In this document: in pieces, positions 4,861-39,995 of the stretch
Numbering within the stretch: the stretch's first letter is position 1
Layout of the letters: the number at the start of each line of letters is the position of its first letter
DNA from: Acidobacteriota bacterium
GTDB lineage: Bacteria; Acidobacteriota; Terriglobia; Bryobacterales; Bryobacteraceae
Assembly: GCA_025350695.1 (NCBI GenBank)
Contig: JANXXI010000313.1
Span: 1 to 49,490 of the forward strand
DNA: 49,490 nucleotides
Reading direction: 5' to 3'
The notes under the pieces: model-generated
Told to the model about the DNA's origin: nothing
Seen by the model: only the letters and a program-made list of their open reading frames with translations
Databases searched by the model: none
Program-made: the position numbers and the translations under genes

Positions 4861-5883
4861 CTAAACCGGAGTCCGCCTAACCTCAACCATCCAAGCCCCG
4901 GCACCCACCCGCTCGGTCCAAAACTCCACGCCAAGAAACGCTCGAATCGTATCCATATTCGCGCGAGCATGAGGAGAAATGCGCGTCGTCGTAAATCTTC
5001 CGCCACCTGCCAGCGCCATGGGCAAAAGCAATTGGTCACCCAGGAATTCGCAAACAGCCGCCGACGATTCCATGTAGCGCCTGGCCTGCTTCGCCGCATC
5101 CGCCGCCAATAACTCGTTCGATTGCCCCGCCCTGCAAAATGCCGTGAACACCTCCGTGATGCCTTCGTAACTCATCTCCAGCATCACGCTCCCCGCGCGG
5201 CCCGTCTCCTCGGCCTTCATCGATTCGCGCGCCATGCCGAGCGTCCGTTCGAGCGCATCCACCTCATCGCCAGACCGATGCCCCGAAAGGCCAACCACCG
5301 ACCGCATTGCATTCTTCTGCATGGGGACGCCACGCTCCAAAAGCGAGACCGGCCGGAAGATCACGGCTGATTCAACACTCATCTTAAGTCGCCCCAACCC
5401 AACCGCGGCATCCTGCGCAACTTCAGTCTGCAAAGTAACTTTTGGACCCATCTTAGAGATCTGTGGCAAGTAGGATTTCGCGAGAAACTCGAACGGTGGA
5501 GCGCCGCTATTCCCGGTTCCGCCTTCCACTACAACAGAACTGTCGCCCTTCGCCAAACACAGCACAGGCAAGATGGTTTGAAGGACCAGCCCGGCGGAAA
5601 CAGTCGACGGCACACGAAACTTGTGCCCGCCCGCAACCACGTCGCCCGGAAAGAAAGTAAGTTGGCCCGACCCCAAAGCCGCGCCATCAAAGCCGGCTGA
5701 ACACAACTGCGCAGCCGCCTCAATCATCGCCACATGCGAACGCAACAAACCCGGCTTCTTCCGTTTTTCGCGAATGTCTTTGATGCGGAACGGCTGCCCG
5801 GTCACCATCGAAACGGCCAACGCCGTGCGCAGAATTTGGCCGCCGCCTTCCCCCGATGAACCGTCAATCACAACCATCTTCAT
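4861..5883 (-). CDS. rtcA: RNA 3'-terminal phosphate cyclase
   Basis: The 340-residue protein matches RtcA in length and motifs. These are the N-terminal IDGSSGEGGGQILRTALA, the KRKKPGL segment, the central GGTGNSGAPP, LLLPMALAGGGRFT, and SPHARAN, which aligns with the catalytic-His motif (His309 in E. coli). It converts RNA 3'-phosphate ends to 2',3'-cyclic phosphates using ATP through a covalent His-AMP. A frame open to 5919 would add 12 residues; the ATG at 5883 (or the next ATG two codons later) fits the family start better. The gene lies upstream of the AIPR gene on the same strand. No rtcB or sigma-54 rtcR regulator is seen in the window, unlike the enterobacterial operon. Confidence 0.93.
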   Translation of the reverse strand: MKMVVIDGSSGEGGGQILRTALAVSMVTGQPFRIKDIREKRKKPGLLRSHVAMIEAAAQLCSAGFDGAALGSGQLTFFPGDVVAGGHKFRVPSTVSAGLVLQTILPVLCLAKGDSSVVVEGGTGNSGAPPFEFLAKSYLPQISKMGPKVTLQTEVAQDAAVGLGRLKMSVESAVIFRPVSLLERGVPMQKNAMRSVVGLSGHRSGDEVDALERTLGMARESMKAEETGRAGSVMLEMSYEGITEVFTAFCRAGQSNELLAADAAKQARRYMESSAAVCEFLGDQLLLPMALAGGGRFTTTRISPHARANMDTIRAFLGVEFWTERVGAGAWMVEVRRTPV

Positions 5884-5980
5884 ATTCGTTATATTCGTTT
5901 CTGACCTACCAAACTTCAAACCGCATTAACGAGTGTCCATGTCTCGCCCCTTCCACGTCAACCACAGCGGTAAGATAACT

Positions 5981-8900
5981 ATGGATCAACCAATGCTTAC
6001 GCTTTGCAAAATACTGCTCGCCGCTGTTCCCGCATTCGCGGCAAGCGTGGAATTTAATCGCGACGTCCGCCCCATCCTTTCCGACAAATGCTTCCAGTGC
6101 CACGGCGCTGACGCGAAAAACAAAAACATCCCATTGCGCCTCGATCGAGAAGATGCCGCAAAAGCAGACTTAGGCAGCGGCCGTCGCGCCATCGTCCCTG
6201 GCAAGGCCGAACAAAGCGAACTCATCCGCCGTGTCACCGCCTCCGCAGCCCGCCGCATGCCACCAATATCAAGCGGCCACACCCTCTCGGTCAAAGAAAT
6301 CGACACACTCCGCACCTGGATCACGGAAGGCGGTGTTTGGCAGGCACATTGGGCCTTCATCCCGCCCAAGCGCTCTGCTGCACCATCGGTGACCAACACA
6401 TCCTGGCTGCGCAACCCCATCGACTCCTTCGTTCTTAGCCGCCTAGAACAACAAGGTCTCAAGCCGGCGCCCCAAGCCTCCAAGGAAACTTTGCTGCGCC
6501 GCACCTCGCTCGACTTAACTGGCCTTCCCCCTACCATCGGCGAACTGGAAGATTTTCTGAAGGACCCGTCCCCAAAGGCTTACGAGAGTGCCGTGGATCG
6601 CCTACTCGCCTCGCCTCGTTACGGCGAACGAATGGCGGTTCGCTGGCTGGACGCCGCCCGCTATGCCGATACCAACGGATATCAGTTCGATGGCGAACGC
6701 ACCATGTGGCGTTGGCGCGATTGGGTCATCGCCTCCTTCAACCGCAATCAACGCTATGACAGTTTCCTCACCGATCAAATCGCCGGAGACATGTTGCCCG
6801 GCGCAACGCTCGATCAGAAAATTGCCACTGGCTTCAATCGGAATCACCGCGCCAACACCGAAGACGGCATCATCCCTGAAGAGTACGCCGTTGAGTACGT
6901 TGTCGATCGCCTGGAAACCACGTCCACCGTCTTCCTCGGCGTCACATTAGGCTGCGCCCGTTGCCATAATCACAAATACGATCCCTTCACCCAGAAGGAG
7001 TTCTATCAGTTCTTCGCCTACTTCAACAATGTACCGGAACTAGGCCGCGCGATGAAGTACGGAAACTCGCCGCCACTTATCCCAGCGCCAACCGATGCTC
7101 AGAAGGTCCAATTGGCCAAGGTTGACGCAACCATTCAAGCCGCTCAAAAGAAGTTCGACCAACACCAACCCAGAATCGAACAGGCGCTCAGCAACCCGGC
7201 CTCCCGGCAACCAGCCTATTGGCGGCCAAACACCGGTTACGAAACAGCCCAAAGAAAACTTGTCGGAAATGTCACCTTCGAAAACGGACCGGTTAGTAGC
7301 GCCGCTAAGCTCGATGGGTCAGCATTTATGGAACTCTCCGGCGCTGGCCTGTTCGATATCGAAGATCGCTTCACCATTTCCGGCTGGATCTATTCCGACA
7401 CGATTCCCCAAGGCGCCCTCCTCACCCGCATGGCCGACACAGTTCGCGGCAAAGGCTATGGCATTTACGCCGACAAAGGCAAGCTGCACTTCCACATCAC
7501 CAACAATTATGATGACGACGCGCTGCGCCTTGAAACGCCGGTTGCTCTTGAAGCCCAGCGCTGGCATCACGTCGCTTTCTCCTACGACGGCTCGCGCATG
7601 GCCGAAGGCGTCACCGTCTATTTGGATGGCAAGCCCCAGGAAAAAAAGGTCCTGCTGGACACGCTCTACCGGCCCTTCAAAAACGCCGGCGCAAAATACA
7701 ACGAACCCTTCCGCGTCGGCGGCGGATGGGGTAAAGGCAATCACTTCAAGGGCCTCATCGACGATCCTCGCACTTATTCCCGCGTTCTGCGCACTGATGA
7801 AATTTCCGCAATGGCCGCGCCGATTGCGCCCGGCACAAAACAAGCGCTCTGGAGCTACCTCGACACCCAGGCGCCCGAGGAAATCGCCCGCGATTGGCGC
7901 CAACTCAACGAGCTCGGCCAGCAGCGCGAGTCCCTTGAGCGAACATTTCCTACAGTCATGGTCATGGCCGAAAGCCCCAATCGCAAAGAGACGCGCATAT
8001 TGCTTCGCGGCGCCTACGACAAGCCCGGTGAGAAGGTAGACCCAGGCGTCCCCGCCACACTCCCGCCCCTGCCTACGGGCGCTCCCAACAATCGCCTTGG
8101 CCTTGCGCAGTGGATGACCTCTCCGGAAAATCCACTGGTCGCGCGCGTCGCCGTGAATCGTTTCTGGCAGATGTATTTCGGAACAGGATTGGTAAAAACC
8201 AGCGAAGATTTCGGCCAACAGGGCGAGTGGCCATCGCACCCCGAATTGCTCGATTGGCTTGCTACCGAATTCGTCCGCACAGGCTGGGATGTCAAGGCAA
8301 TGCAGAAACTGATCGTCACCTCAGCCGCCTATCAACAATCTTCGAAAGCCACGCCAGAGCTGATTCAGAAGGATCCCGACAACCGTCTGATCTCGCGCGG
8401 CCCCCGCTTCCGCATGCCCGCCGAAATGGTGCGCGACCAAGCTCTCTCCGCCTCCGGCCTGCTCACCGAAAAGCTCGGCGGCCCCTCAGTCAAACCCTAT
8501 CAGCCAGCCGGACTTTGGAAGGAAGTGGTCATGCAGGACATGGACTACACGCAATCCAAAGGTCCCGATACTTACCGCCGTGGCCTTTATACTTTTTGGA
8601 AACGCACGGTCGCGCCTCCCATGATGGCTACCTTCGATGCCGCAAATCGCGAAGCTTGCGTAGTGCGTGAGAACCGCACTAACACGCCTCTGCAAGCTCT
8701 CAACCTGATGAACGATGTAACGTTCCTTGAAGCGGCCCGCTTCGTCGCTCAGCGCATGCTCACGGAAGGCGGTCCAACGTCTGATGCGCGCCTTGCTCAC
8801 GGCTTCCGCCTCATTCTCGCCCGCGCGCCACAACCGGCCGAACTCAACGTGTTGCGTAACTCCCTGAGCTACCATCTCGATTACTTCGCTTCCAATCAGC

Positions 8901-26397: not shown

Positions 26398-26751
26398 CTA
26401 GCGGTTACCCAAATTCAGCACTAAAATACCGGCAAGGATCATCCCTAGACCGACGAACTTGGATTGCGTTAGTGCTTCTTTAAAGAAGATCCGCGACCAA
26501 AGTAACGTCCAGACATAGCCGAGCGACACCATCGGGTAAAGCACAGTCAGTTCGCCATTCCTGATACCAGCGGTGTAAACCACGAAAGACGCAAGATAGG
26601 TTACTATGCCGGCCAGCAGCCGCCAATTGGTTAGCAGGGATTTGAAATTGCGTTCCAGCCTATCGGCTCCGCCCTTTAAGAAGGTGGCTCCGAAAGAACC
26701 GATGAAGGATGCCCCAAGAACGAGGAGGATGGAACTGAGTGGCGTTTTCAC
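26398..26751 (-). CDS. Small EamA/SMR-type membrane transporter subunit (second of pair)
   Basis: The 117-residue protein is four hydrophobic helices of the drug/metabolite transporter superfamily: ILLVLGASFIGSFGATFLKGG, a second helix, then GELTVLYPMVSLGYVWTLLWSRIFF and GLGMILAGILVLNLG. The chosen GTG start overlaps the upstream stop by 4 bases (GTGA) and has an AAGGAG five bases before it; a longer frame to 26889 would overlap the neighbour heavily and is rejected. Half-size DMT proteins work as dimers, and two adjacent ones suggest a heterodimer like ArnE/ArnF or paired SMR pumps. The substrate is unknown. Confidence 0.78.
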   Translation of the reverse strand: MKTPLSSILLVLGASFIGSFGATFLKGGADRLERNFKSLLTNWRLLAGIVTYLASFVVYTAGIRNGELTVLYPMVSLGYVWTLLWSRIFFKEALTQSKFVGLGMILAGILVLNLGNR

Positions 26752-27218
26752 ATTGGCTCCTTGTGCTGAGGCCGCTTGGGTTGGCCAAGACCCAAGATGC
26801 AAACTCCGCCCACAATCAAGATCAATCCACATGCTTTGTAGATATTGATCGATTCGTGGAAGAAAAATAGGGATAGACAAGCTACCCAAACGTAGGTCAA
26901 TGCAATAACCGGGTACAACATTGAAAGCTCACCGTACCGCAACGCAAGAACCAACAAAGCGGTACTGCCGCCGTACAAGCAAAGCCCAAGCATAATTTGC
27001 CAGTTCATCAAGCCAGCTAGGATAAGTTCGAACAAGCCGGCGTGCGGCGGAAGCAGTTTCAGACCGGTCTTAATAAGGATTTGCGCCGCGGCGCCCAGCA
27101 CGGTGCAGCCAAACACCATCGTTAGGGACTTCTTGAGATTTCGCTTGGACGTCCCAAGCTCGGCTGGAGGTTGACTCAAGGGTGATGTCCCGGGCCTTTC
27201 GATTGTCGCACTTCTCAT
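26748..27218 (-). CDS. Small EamA/SMR-type membrane transporter subunit (first of pair)
   Basis: The 156-residue protein has a charged N-terminal extension of about 30 residues, then four transmembrane helices with the same motifs as its neighbour: LGAAAQILIKTGL, YGGSTALLVLALRYGELSMLYPVIALTYVWVACLSLFFF and GLILIVGGVCILGLG. The repeated GEL(S/T)xLYP(V/M) motif marks the two as paralogues. Start overlaps the hydantoinase B stop (ATGA) and its stop overlaps the next start (GTGA). Possible roles are export of a hydantoin-pathway product or flipping of a lipid-linked sugar; both are inference. Confidence 0.78.
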   Translation of the reverse strand: MRSATIERPGTSPLSQPPAELGTSKRNLKKSLTMVFGCTVLGAAAQILIKTGLKLLPPHAGLFELILAGLMNWQIMLGLCLYGGSTALLVLALRYGELSMLYPVIALTYVWVACLSLFFFHESINIYKACGLILIVGGVCILGLGQPKRPQHKEPM

Positions 27219-37669: not shown

Positions 37670-38350
37670 TTGAGCAAAACCTTGTTGTCGCTGTTGGGCT
37701 TATTAGCGTTCGCGATCCTGGGCTATTTCTGTATTTATTCACACCATCGTCACGAAATCCAAGCAGACATTCAGGGGCGGACCATAGCTGCGTTACGCGA
37801 CGCGTGTCCGGCAGCCAGAGTAACCACCGACGGGAGAGATGTCACGCTCACCGGCGTGGTGGCCACCGACGAGGTTAAGCGCCGCTGTGAAAAACTTGCC
37901 ACCGGCATTTGGGGTAATAACGCGGTCGCCAACAAGCTAACCGTGGAACAAATAAAGGTCGACACTCCAGTCCAGGCGGCCGCCAAGTCGTGCCAAACCC
38001 AGTTCAATGAATTGCTAAAAGGCGAAACGATTTTGTTTGTCACAGGTAGCGCCCTAGTGGACCCCGCGAGCCATGAATTGCTCGACAAATTGGCTGAAGA
38101 GGCTAAGGAATGCCCCGAAGCGAAAGTAACGATCGCCGGCCATACCGACCATCAGGGTGCAGCCGCTTCTAACCAGAAGTTAAGTGAACAACGGGCCAGT
38201 TCGGTTGTGGCATACCTGAAACAAAAGGGTATTGCCGCATCCAGGCTAACAGCCGTAGGCTACGGCTTTGACAAGCCCGTCGCCAGCAATTCCACCCCCG
38301 AGGGAATGCAAAAGAATCGCAGGATTGAGTTTAACGTAGAAGGAATATAG
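37670..38350 (+). CDS. OmpA-like protein with BON domain and N-terminal anchor
   Basis: The 226-residue protein has an N-terminal membrane helix (LLSLLGLLAFAILGYFCIYS), a BON domain (about 30-90: ALRDACPAARVTTDGRDVTLTGVVATDEVKRR) and a C-terminal OmpA peptidoglycan-binding domain (ILFVTGSALVDPAS; VTIAGHTDHQGAAASNQKLSEQRA; SRLTAVGYGFDKPVA; NRRIEF). It should tether the envelope to the cell wall, with the BON domain binding lipid or a partner. The start is TTG, supported by the AGGGAGGAGG site six bases before it. The coiled-coil gene follows after 7 bases, so the two form an operon. Confidence 0.88.
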   Translation: MSKTLLSLLGLLAFAILGYFCIYSHHRHEIQADIQGRTIAALRDACPAARVTTDGRDVTLTGVVATDEVKRRCEKLATGIWGNNAVANKLTVEQIKVDTPVQAAAKSCQTQFNELLKGETILFVTGSALVDPASHELLDKLAEEAKECPEAKVTIAGHTDHQGAAASNQKLSEQRASSVVAYLKQKGIAASRLTAVGYGFDKPVASNSTPEGMQKNRRIEFNVEGI

Positions 38351-38357
38351 GCCGAAT

Positions 38358-39947
38358 ATGAGTTACTTAGTCACCCAAATGTGGATGTGCCTGCTTGCCG
38401 CGGGATTGCTTGGATTTGTTCTTGGCTGGCTGCTGAAACAGCTAGGTTTGGGCAGTAAGTTGGAAGAGCTGGAAACGAGTTGGAAATCACGTCTTGCCGG
38501 AGTTGAAGGCGAGCGCGACAAACTCAGAGCCAATGCAGCTGAACTTACGGCTCAGTCAAGGAAAGTGGAAACGGACTGGACGGCAAAATACGGCGCACTT
38601 AGCGGTGATCACGACAAATTGAAGCTGTCATTAATTGAAGTGGATAAAAAATATGCCGGTTTTGACGCGGATTGGAAAGCCAAGTGGGCCGCGCTCGAGA
38701 CTGAAAAGAAGAAACTGGCCTCCGAACATGAAGGTTGCAGTGCGAAGGTTGCCGCCGCCGAAAAGGATTTGGCCGCTTGGAAACTGCAATTCGCCGACCT
38801 TGAAAAAACGGCGGAGACAGCCAAGGCCGATCACGATTCGTTGAACGCCAAACTTGCCGCTGGCACGGCTGCATTGGCCGCGGCCGAAGCGGCGCGTATC
38901 GCGTTGGGTAACGATTCAAGGAAGCTGTCCGCTGAGCTGGAAGCCGAAAAAGCGAAGCACGCCGCCAGGGAAGCTGACTGGAAATCGAAATGGGCGATGC
39001 ATGATAAAGAGTTGGGTTCCTGGAAGTTGAAGTTTGCGGACCTTCAGAAGGCTGGTTCCGGCGCGAAGGCTGATCATGACTCGTTAAGCGCCAAGTTCGC
39101 TGCCGGTGCTGCTGCCTTGGCTGCCGCGGAAGCCGCCCGTCATGCATTGAGCAACGACGCAAAGAAGCTGGCGGATCAATTGGAACAGGAGAAAGGGAAG
39201 TACTCACACCTCGACACCGATTGGCGCGCAAAGTGGGCCATTCTGGAAAAGGAGCGCAATCAGTTAAAAGCGGACATTGATCTGAAGGCCAAACACGAAC
39301 ACGAAGTTCACGAAAAGCATCAGGAAGCCGAAGCCCATTGGAAATCGCGATGGGTTGCGCTGGAGAAAGAACGTGACAGTCTGAAGGCTCAGTTGGAAGC
39401 CGCGGGCAAGAATGACGGTACCATCCATGCTCAACTGCAGGACGCCCAAGCTAAGCTAGGCGCGTCCGACGCCGATTGGACGGGACGCATCGCGACGTTA
39501 GAAGCGGAACTGGACAAGTTGAGAAACGCGAAGCCTGCTGTTTTGGGTGACATTGAGGATATTGAAGGTATCGGTCCATCATACGGCGACAAGCTTCGCG
39601 GTGTGGGAATCGCTTGGATCAAACAATTACTGGAACGCGGAGCCAACAAGGAAGGGCGTGATGAGATCGCAGCTTCCTCGGGCATTGCGTATCCGCTGAT
39701 CCTCAAATGGACCAATATTGCTGATCTTCTTCGCTTGCGGGGCGTGACGCCGGATTGGGCAGAACTGCTCGAAGCCTCCGGCGTGGACACAGTGAAGGAA
39801 ATCAAGCAACGCGTGCCTGGCAATTTACTTACAAAGATGACCGAAGTGAATGCGGAGAAGCACTTGGCTCCGTCGCTGCCTACCATCGAATTGGTAACCA
39901 GTTGGGTGGAGCAGGCCAAGGCAATACCTCCGATCCTGACTTACTAA
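38358..39947 (+). CDS. Membrane-anchored Trp-patterned coiled-coil protein with C-terminal HhH/DUF4332-like domain
   Basis: The 529-residue protein has a membrane helix (MWMCLLAAGLLGFVLGWLL), then about 350 residues of Ala/Lys/Glu-rich coiled coil, then a helix-hairpin-helix domain (391-529: DIEDIEGIGPSYGDKLRGVGI and RLRGVTPDWAELLEASGVD). The coil holds two tandem 81-residue repeats (141-221 and 222-302, starting WKLxFADLxK) and a motif W-x-(A/S/G)-(K/R)-(W/Y/L/I) recurring about seven times (near 42, 74, 106, 208, 289, 328, 374). The terminal domain resembles DUF4332, usually seen with OmpA-like or extracytoplasmic proteins. It is co-transcribed with the OmpA/BON gene and followed by a UUCG terminator. 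A periplasm-spanning or cytoplasmic rod is inferred. Confidence 0.75.
   Translation: MSYLVTQMWMCLLAAGLLGFVLGWLLKQLGLGSKLEELETSWKSRLAGVEGERDKLRANAAELTAQSRKVETDWTAKYGALSGDHDKLKLSLIEVDKKYAGFDADWKAKWAALETEKKKLASEHEGCSAKVAAAEKDLAAWKLQFADLEKTAETAKADHDSLNAKLAAGTAALAAAEAARIALGNDSRKLSAELEAEKAKHAAREADWKSKWAMHDKELGSWKLKFADLQKAGSGAKADHDSLSAKFAAGAAALAAAEAARHALSNDAKKLADQLEQEKGKYSHLDTDWRAKWAILEKERNQLKADIDLKAKHEHEVHEKHQEAEAHWKSRWVALEKERDSLKAQLEAAGKNDGTIHAQLQDAQAKLGASDADWTGRIATLEAELDKLRNAKPAVLGDIEDIEGIGPSYGDKLRGVGIAWIKQLLERGANKEGRDEIAASSGIAYPLILKWTNIADLLRLRGVTPDWAELLEASGVDTVKEIKQRVPGNLLTKMTEVNAEKHLAPSLPTIELVTSWVEQAKAIPPILTY
38778..39263 (+). repeat. Two tandem 243-base repeats inside the coiled-coil gene
   Basis: Codons 141-221 and 222-302 encode copies of the same 81-residue unit. 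Matching blocks include ADHDSL, AAALAAAEAAR and the DW-x-x-KWA end. Third-position differences are common, so the duplication is not recent. Confidence 0.75.
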
Positions 39948-39965: not shown

Positions 39966-39995
39966 AGGCCTTCCTTCGGGGAGGCCTTTTCATTT
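39966..39995 (+). terminator. Intrinsic terminator with UUCG tetraloop
   Basis: AGGCCTTCC (39966-39974) pairs with GGGAGGCCT (39979-39987) around a TTCG loop closed by C-G, the extra-stable cUUCGg hairpin, followed by TTT and a further T-rich stretch. It ends the OmpA/coiled-coil operon. Confidence 0.85.

Follow-up and report, generated by a model that had tools for sequence, protein, structure and literature searches.

The two adjacent genes at positions 37670–39947 of the acidobacterial contig JANXXI010000313.1, of which we analyzed a stretch of 49,490 nucleotides (the window), belong to a gene pair that is kept in distant bacteria with matched cysteines in the membrane segments, suggesting that their products probably act as one linker from the wall to the cell interior. 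Specifically, we favor, with moderate confidence, a heteromeric inner-membrane linker that connects peptidoglycan with a cytoplasmic target. This reading starts from the pairing of the genes, the opposite predicted topologies of the two proteins, the HhH-like head of the second protein, and the covariation of one cysteine in each membrane helix. The features of the pair are as follows.

37670..38350, + strand: membrane-anchored BON+OmpA protein (226 aa, TTG start), assigned with Pfam; its relatives adjoin the partner gene in other genomes.
37679..37738, + strand: membrane helix of the BON protein, approximately residues 4–23, predicted N-in/C-out from the sequence and the flanking K/R over 46 pairs.
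37730..37732, + strand: Cys21 codon of the BON protein, at the end of its membrane helix predicted to face the periplasm; Cys in all 14 sequences of alignment A1 and in 32 of 46 pairs, covarying with partner Cys11.
37811..37948, + strand: BON domain, residues 48–93 (PF04972, 31.9 bits, curated cut-off 27).
38033..38320, + strand: OmpA-like peptidoglycan-binding domain, residues 122–217 (PF00691, 85.0 bits, curated cut-off 27.2).
38358..39947, + strand: partner protein with membrane helix, Trp-rich helical rod, and DUF4332 head (529 aa), from Pfam, self-comparison, and a structure model.
38364..38435, + strand: partner membrane helix, approximately residues 3–26, predicted N-out/C-in, with more K/R after than before it in 46 of 46 partners.
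38388..38390, + strand: partner Cys11 codon, in the predicted outer-leaflet half of its membrane helix; the top inter-protein covarying column with BON Cys21.
38460..39527, + strand: helical rod, residues ~35–390 (model helices at 32–160, 176–229, 240–349, and 356–389).
38778..38957, + strand: first copy of a period-81 repeat, residues 141–200, identical to the second copy at 42 of 60 residues.
39021..39200, + strand: second copy of the period-81 repeat, residues 222–281, from self-comparison.
39564..39923, + strand: DUF4332 head with HhH fold, residues 403–522 (PF14229, 117.3 bits, curated cut-off 23.2; 10-residue pLDDT means of 87–95 in the model; structural alignment to HhH domains).
39970..39984, + strand: terminator-like hairpin 3' of the gene pair, from a sequence search of the stretch; weak.

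The first-pass annotation had placed an OmpA/BON gene next to the second gene, and this was upheld, with both domains scoring above their Pfam cut-offs and the partner gene starting 7 bases downstream of the OmpA/BON gene. In the OmpA domain, R175 was invariant and D160 was present in at least 90% of the sequences of alignment A1; both residues are associated with peptidoglycan binding, a predicted activity of the window's protein. Its structure model was of moderate confidence (pLDDT 75). The hairpin downstream of the pair is weak evidence because four such sites occur in the stretch, against 4.0 in shuffled sequences. Elsewhere in the window (26398–27218, reverse strand), two overlapping genes for small multi-helix proteins lie in tandem and, on a sequence impression only, are transporter-like.

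For the second protein, the same annotation had described a membrane helix, two 81-residue repeats, and a DUF4332-like domain after the coil, all of which were confirmed, the helix as N-terminal and the repeats as a period of 81 residues that was also the best self-offset of the rod (67% identity between the copies at the DNA level). The structure model was helical, with a rod containing breaks and a confidently predicted head, and was reliable for the head only, the 10-residue pLDDT means in the rod ranging from 36 to 84. The hydrophobic residues of the rod were mostly spaced by 4, 7, 3, and 2 residues, in keeping with heptads, and its WxxxW pairs could occupy core positions of such heptads. 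About seven evenly placed W-x-(A/S)-(K/R)-W motifs had also been read in this rod. The motif is indeed above chance, with W-x-(A/S)-(K/R) occurring six times in the rod (reached by none of 20,000 shuffles) and W-xxx-W pairs occurring four times in the partner (reached by 7 of 20,000), but neither the number nor the regularity stood: the strict form was found four times, at residues 106, 208, 289, and 328, the looser form brought the total to six by adding 42 and 74, and the spacings were 32, 32, 102, 81, and 39. The suggestion that these Trp residues may form docking rungs largely failed when conservation among homologues was checked, and Trp rungs were rejected as a feature of the family: a Trp near W42 was present in 15 of the 46 partners compared (14 in the exact column), and the looser Trp-Lys/Arg motif occurred seven or more times in only four of them. 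The same-genus homologue L014 did keep them (nine of nine aligning rod Trp, at a rod identity of 141/265, or 53%). It is about an even question whether the Trp-rich rod is simply an effect of composition in a coil rich in Ala, Lys, and Glu, lengthened by tandem duplication and with no binding role. The period-81 duplication and the wide variation in Trp content and rod length, which ran from zero to ~900 residues across the partners, are consistent with such an effect, whereas the retention of all nine aligned Trp in L014 at that level of rod identity argues against it. The Trp pattern is real and belongs to the near clade, and we see in it a juxtamembrane unit that has probably expanded in this lineage, and do not regard it as the key feature of the system.

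What is conserved is the gene pair, while the rod length and the head vary. The nearest named homologues of the window, L014 and L015, were Acidobacteria and Terriglobia MAGs, and L014 kept the entire arrangement. In the order-level sample, the OmpA/BON protein was matched in 250 of 250 genomes, with full-length matches in at least 14 genomes among the matches listed. When 22 loci were compared, the BON gene was present in 21, L081 being a partner fragment only, and the partner lay directly downstream in all 21, where its membrane helix read M-x-Y-L-x-x-x-I-x-x-C-L-L or a near variant. A Gammaproteobacteria MAG genome (L029; G660) held two further pairs, L184 and L185, both of which are included in A7, a profile of the helix and the BON domain. 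In a Gammaproteobacteria class sample, 11 of 143 genomes matched this profile at E<1e-9, as did 24 of 350 in a larger, overlapping sample, the weaker matches being mostly BON only. In the Gammaproteobacteria-class search, the partner was found by script in 16 of 19 regions, and by eye in L261. In the phylum sample, A7 matched at E<1e-12 in 14 of 247 genomes, including that of the window, and partners were found by script in L218, L219, and L221–L231 and by reading in L220 (=L177); the ten loci L221–L230 had partners of only ~70 aa. The profile misses known members, as G528, which holds the pair L143, was absent among the listed phylum-sample matches. One locus in the Alphaproteobacteria sample of 106 genomes (L322) had a partner, recognized by eye, ~220 bases downstream.

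A later set comprised 29 unique BON loci at E<1e-8, with one of each duplicate kept. The partner was found by profile in 23 of the 29 and by eye in two more (L313, and L268 as read in the longer L322, ~220 bases downstream); the BON frame of L287 and L267 ran off the contig end, and no partner was found within ~300 bases in L311. In L297, as in L266 among the earlier rows, the BON gene and a gap after it preceded another kind of small membrane ORF, which begins near MWFWV. Run on loci with weak BON matches as a negative control, the N-terminal profile of the partner matched none of 35, and only this figure is informative, because all 12 of 12 positive loci were training rows or near copies of them. 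An NCBIfam scan of the partner N-termini named no informative family. The first-pass annotation had asked whether the genes are linked elsewhere, and they are, with pairs in the Acidobacteriota, in the Gammaproteobacteria class sample, and, by eye, in one alphaproteobacterial locus. The genome of the window gave one DUF4332 match. It also contains a second pair, at L075 (G000:C99:1-12000) and L168, where OmpA/BON occupies 5863–6537, the coil begins at 6571, and the HhH at 7698–7900 is divided between two frames, so that this partner looks broken or mis-assembled. L260 is followed by a membrane protein whose LPKVDV-rich repeats differ in type from the short repeats of L072 and L074 described below.

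The two proteins were predicted to have opposite orientations in the membrane. Over the 46 pairs, K/R made up 0 of 137 residues before the partner membrane helix, a part of at most three residues per protein, and 141 of 635 after it, the later stretch being the richer in every partner, whereas the BON protein had 40 of 140 before its helix and 44 of 552 after. Under the positive-inside rule, the BON/OmpA part is therefore predicted to be periplasmic and the rod and head cytoplasmic. The first-pass annotation had proposed an envelope-spanning spacer or scaffold; the scaffold or linker part gains from the recurrence of the pair in distant genomes, but a rod acting as a periplasmic spacer was rejected, as the flanking K/R place it, by prediction, in the cytoplasm.

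Cys21 lies at the end of the BON protein helix and Cys11 at the start of the partner helix, which under the predicted topology puts both in the outer-leaflet half of the membrane. Among the 46 pairs, 27 had both cysteines, five had that of the BON protein only, none had that of the partner only, and 14 had neither (Fisher's test, 4.8e-8). The association held in each group separately, with counts, in the same order, of 8/1/0/9 in gammaproteobacterial (p 4e-4) and 19/4/0/5 in acidobacterial pairs (p 1.3e-3). Among 3,510 inter-protein column pairs, Cys21–Cys11 ranked first on two measures: its binary mutual information was 0.363 (the next pair, 0.245), and its corrected 20-letter mutual information was 0.460 (the next pair, 0.341). 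On a gene tree built from the BON/OmpA domains without the membrane helix (196 columns), parsimony required 9 and 10 changes for the two cysteine traits, and the observed correlation of 0.79 was reached by none of 5,000 simulations of independent evolution (maximum, 0.59). Left out of the 46 pairs were L071, which lacks the OmpA N-terminus; L144, where the alignment had no BON helix; L251, at a contig end; L261, whose divergent partner was later read as neither-Cys; and L266, with its different small membrane ORF. Of the ten similar loci L221–L230, L222 represents nine, and L229 was kept apart. The idea for the test came from the first alignments, and the 46 pairs include their rows; only the 23 later pairs postdate the hypothesis. 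These agreed less cleanly, with five both, three BON only, one partner only, and 14 neither (p 0.0086), in a set that is not fully independent, as it was found with the same A7 profile in the same class sample. Their alignment used mafft --add --keeplength, and a row gapped at the Cys column, such as L316, was counted as lacking Cys.

Over all 69 pairs, a BON cysteine without a partner cysteine occurred in eight, the partner site then holding W, Y, or F, and the reverse in one (L300, where the BON alignment is gapped). Because L222 stands for nine similar loci, BON-only cases are commoner by raw count; eight of these nine, the loci other than L224, were seen to have the BON Cys with W in the partner. 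The existence of such cases means that a disulfide cannot be universal. They also speak for a different reading, in which the cysteines are not bonded to each other but hold a common cofactor, carry a modification, or mark a subfamily. We consider this rather unlikely, since the covariation appears in two phyla separately, survives the tree-based control, and forms the top column pair. A lipobox has A, G, or S directly before the Cys; the BON Cys was preceded by F, L, V, Y, N, I, M, or C, and by A, G, or S in none of 32 proteins, and its candidacy as a lipobox Cys was rejected.

The head model aligned to the HhH domains of Pol theta, Hel308, NusA AR2, RadA/Rad51, and Pol iota with VIA-align Z scores of 7.5–10, a range that the tool itself cautions is common for helical models, and the Pfam HHH_5 match was below its cut-off. 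A full-length Foldseek search with the partner model gave no E<=0.001, the values being 0.15 or higher, and no PDB sequence match for the head was found. The first hairpin of the window head reads GIG. The neighboring NusA AR2 structure is in complex with SuhB, indicating that an HhH need not mean DNA. Furthermore, the head pIs argue against uniform DNA binding, with 10 of 19 computed heads below 6 and five above 8; the window head is acidic (pI 5.0, net −4), and DNA binding was rejected as an established property of it. DUF4332 heads were found in the window, L014, L063, L064, and L066 and, in the Gammaproteobacteria search, with Pfam in L248, L250, L252, L253 (twice), and L254, whereas L068, L069, L072, L074, L082, and L143 carried another HhH-type head, that of L068 and L074 matching, below the cut-offs, the C-terminal part of the NCBIfam models for NuoE, L21, S2, and phasin PhaH. 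Since our two home-made head profiles overlap (L082 was assigned to DUF4332, although by sequence it reads like the other HhH type), we use only the total, which is 28 of 46 partners with a detected HhH head; a number of the other partners are cut or split. Several partners departed from the usual form. L253 (2200–3489) carries two tandem DUF4332 domains; in L072 (4209–6587) and L074 (3993–6248), many short PDLSGFALKSELP-like repeats stand in place of the coil rod, with the membrane helix and HhH head kept; in L065 (G254:C188), the frame is split, with the membrane helix in one frame and the coil and DUF4332 in another; and in L078 (3329–4693), the partner matches DUF2934 near its end and has no HhH head.

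Four of the 46 partners were intact but only 32–71 aa long (L184, 39; L222, 71; L229, 70; and L260, 32 residues), those of L184 (after 4638) and L260 being nearly the membrane helix alone, which argues against the head being the core function. Such short partners would suit a reading in which the two proteins are accessory to an envelope channel or a stress system of the kind encoded by the mycobacterial OmpATb/ArfA operon, the rod and HhH being later decoration. OmpATb/ArfA (Rv0899) is anchored in the membrane by its N-terminus and has a BON-like domain in the middle and a further domain at the C-terminus, and the available text describes it as pore-forming and tied to ammonia secretion (PMC6151718); however, the HhH head in 28 of 46 partners makes this reading unlikely for the pair. 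Less probable still is that the partner works by itself, like YhcB/ZapG, as a membrane-attached coil scaffold in the cytoplasm, gene adjacency reflecting shared regulation only. YhcB is described in the available text as having an N-terminal membrane helix and, after it, a coiled coil that forms a tetramer in the cytosol (PMC8163987). Against this reading, the partner N-terminus lay beside none of the 35 weak BON loci and residues covary between the two membrane helices.

In the heteromeric linker that we favor, the BON+OmpA protein (N-in, C-out) would hold the peptidoglycan side, and the partner (N-out, C-in) would extend into the cytoplasm as a rod whose length varies and which here terminates in an HhH head. 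In a physical complex, the membrane helices of both proteins would lie side by side and meet near the periplasmic face, where Cys21 and Cys11 may form an intermolecular disulfide or a direct contact; lineages without the cysteines would keep the pair by packing alone. We infer that the complex may serve as a tether, that is, a wall-anchored cytoplasmic scaffold fixing whatever the head binds, whether DNA, RNA, or protein. BON/OmpA proteins and DUF4332 are both common, with roles that are often obscure, and are here placed in one system that offers a specific predicted contact (Cys21–Cys11) and an explicit predicted topology. If true, it would open a way to study how these bacteria convey the position of the cell wall to the cytoplasm.

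The literature searched gave no description of a BON/OmpA and rod pair, and DUF4332 appeared in the available text only as a gene label in a figure legend. DUF4332 proteins without an OmpA neighbor and the C-terminal HhH modeled with NuoE, L21, S2, and phasin PhaH have the same head families as the pair, which differs in that its head is fused to a membrane-anchored rod. Free-standing DUF4332 genes were rejected as the same operon, as OmpA was found in none of the 22 such loci (L005–L011 and L016–L030), where the DUF4332 ORFs were 141–177 aa in at least ten. The partner resembles YhcB/ZapG in having an N-terminal membrane helix and, in the available descriptions, a cytosolic coiled coil; DUF1043, the YhcB/ZapG family, was not matched in a Pfam scan of the window protein at E<=0.1, and we know of no HhH head or BON partner for YhcB.

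The OmpATb/ArfA protein has BON-like and C-terminal domains, and the BON+OmpA protein of the window shares its membrane anchoring; OmpATb/ArfA differs in being reported, in the available text, as a pore and ammonia system. Its operon co-encodes small membrane proteins, we know of no rod or HhH head in that system, and no Arf family was named in the NCBIfam scan of the partner N-termini. HubP, the polar landmark of Vibrio cholerae, is described in the available text as having a peptidoglycan-binding periplasmic domain, one membrane helix, and a long repetitive cytosolic region that recruits proteins (PMC8789113). The pair would work like HubP but is not a member of the HubP/FimV group: HubP is one polypeptide with LysM and TPR, whereas the pair consists of two polypeptides of opposite predicted topology with OmpA/BON and HhH. 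A Pfam scan of either protein found no LysM or tetratricopeptide domain, the TPR_MLP1_2 match being to a different coil model and below the cut-off.

In the LINC complex (SUN–KASH), two opposed membrane proteins joined by a disulfide couple structures on both sides. The comparison with the pair concerns only how it might work, with no homology claimed, as the membranes and folds are different. Tentatively, the pair could be a bacterial functional counterpart of LINC, a disulfide-joined two-protein link that would cross the inner membrane and tie peptidoglycan to the nucleoid or to some other body in the cytoplasm, in which interchangeable rods would set the distance and interchangeable HhH heads the target, although we regard this fuller version as doubtful.
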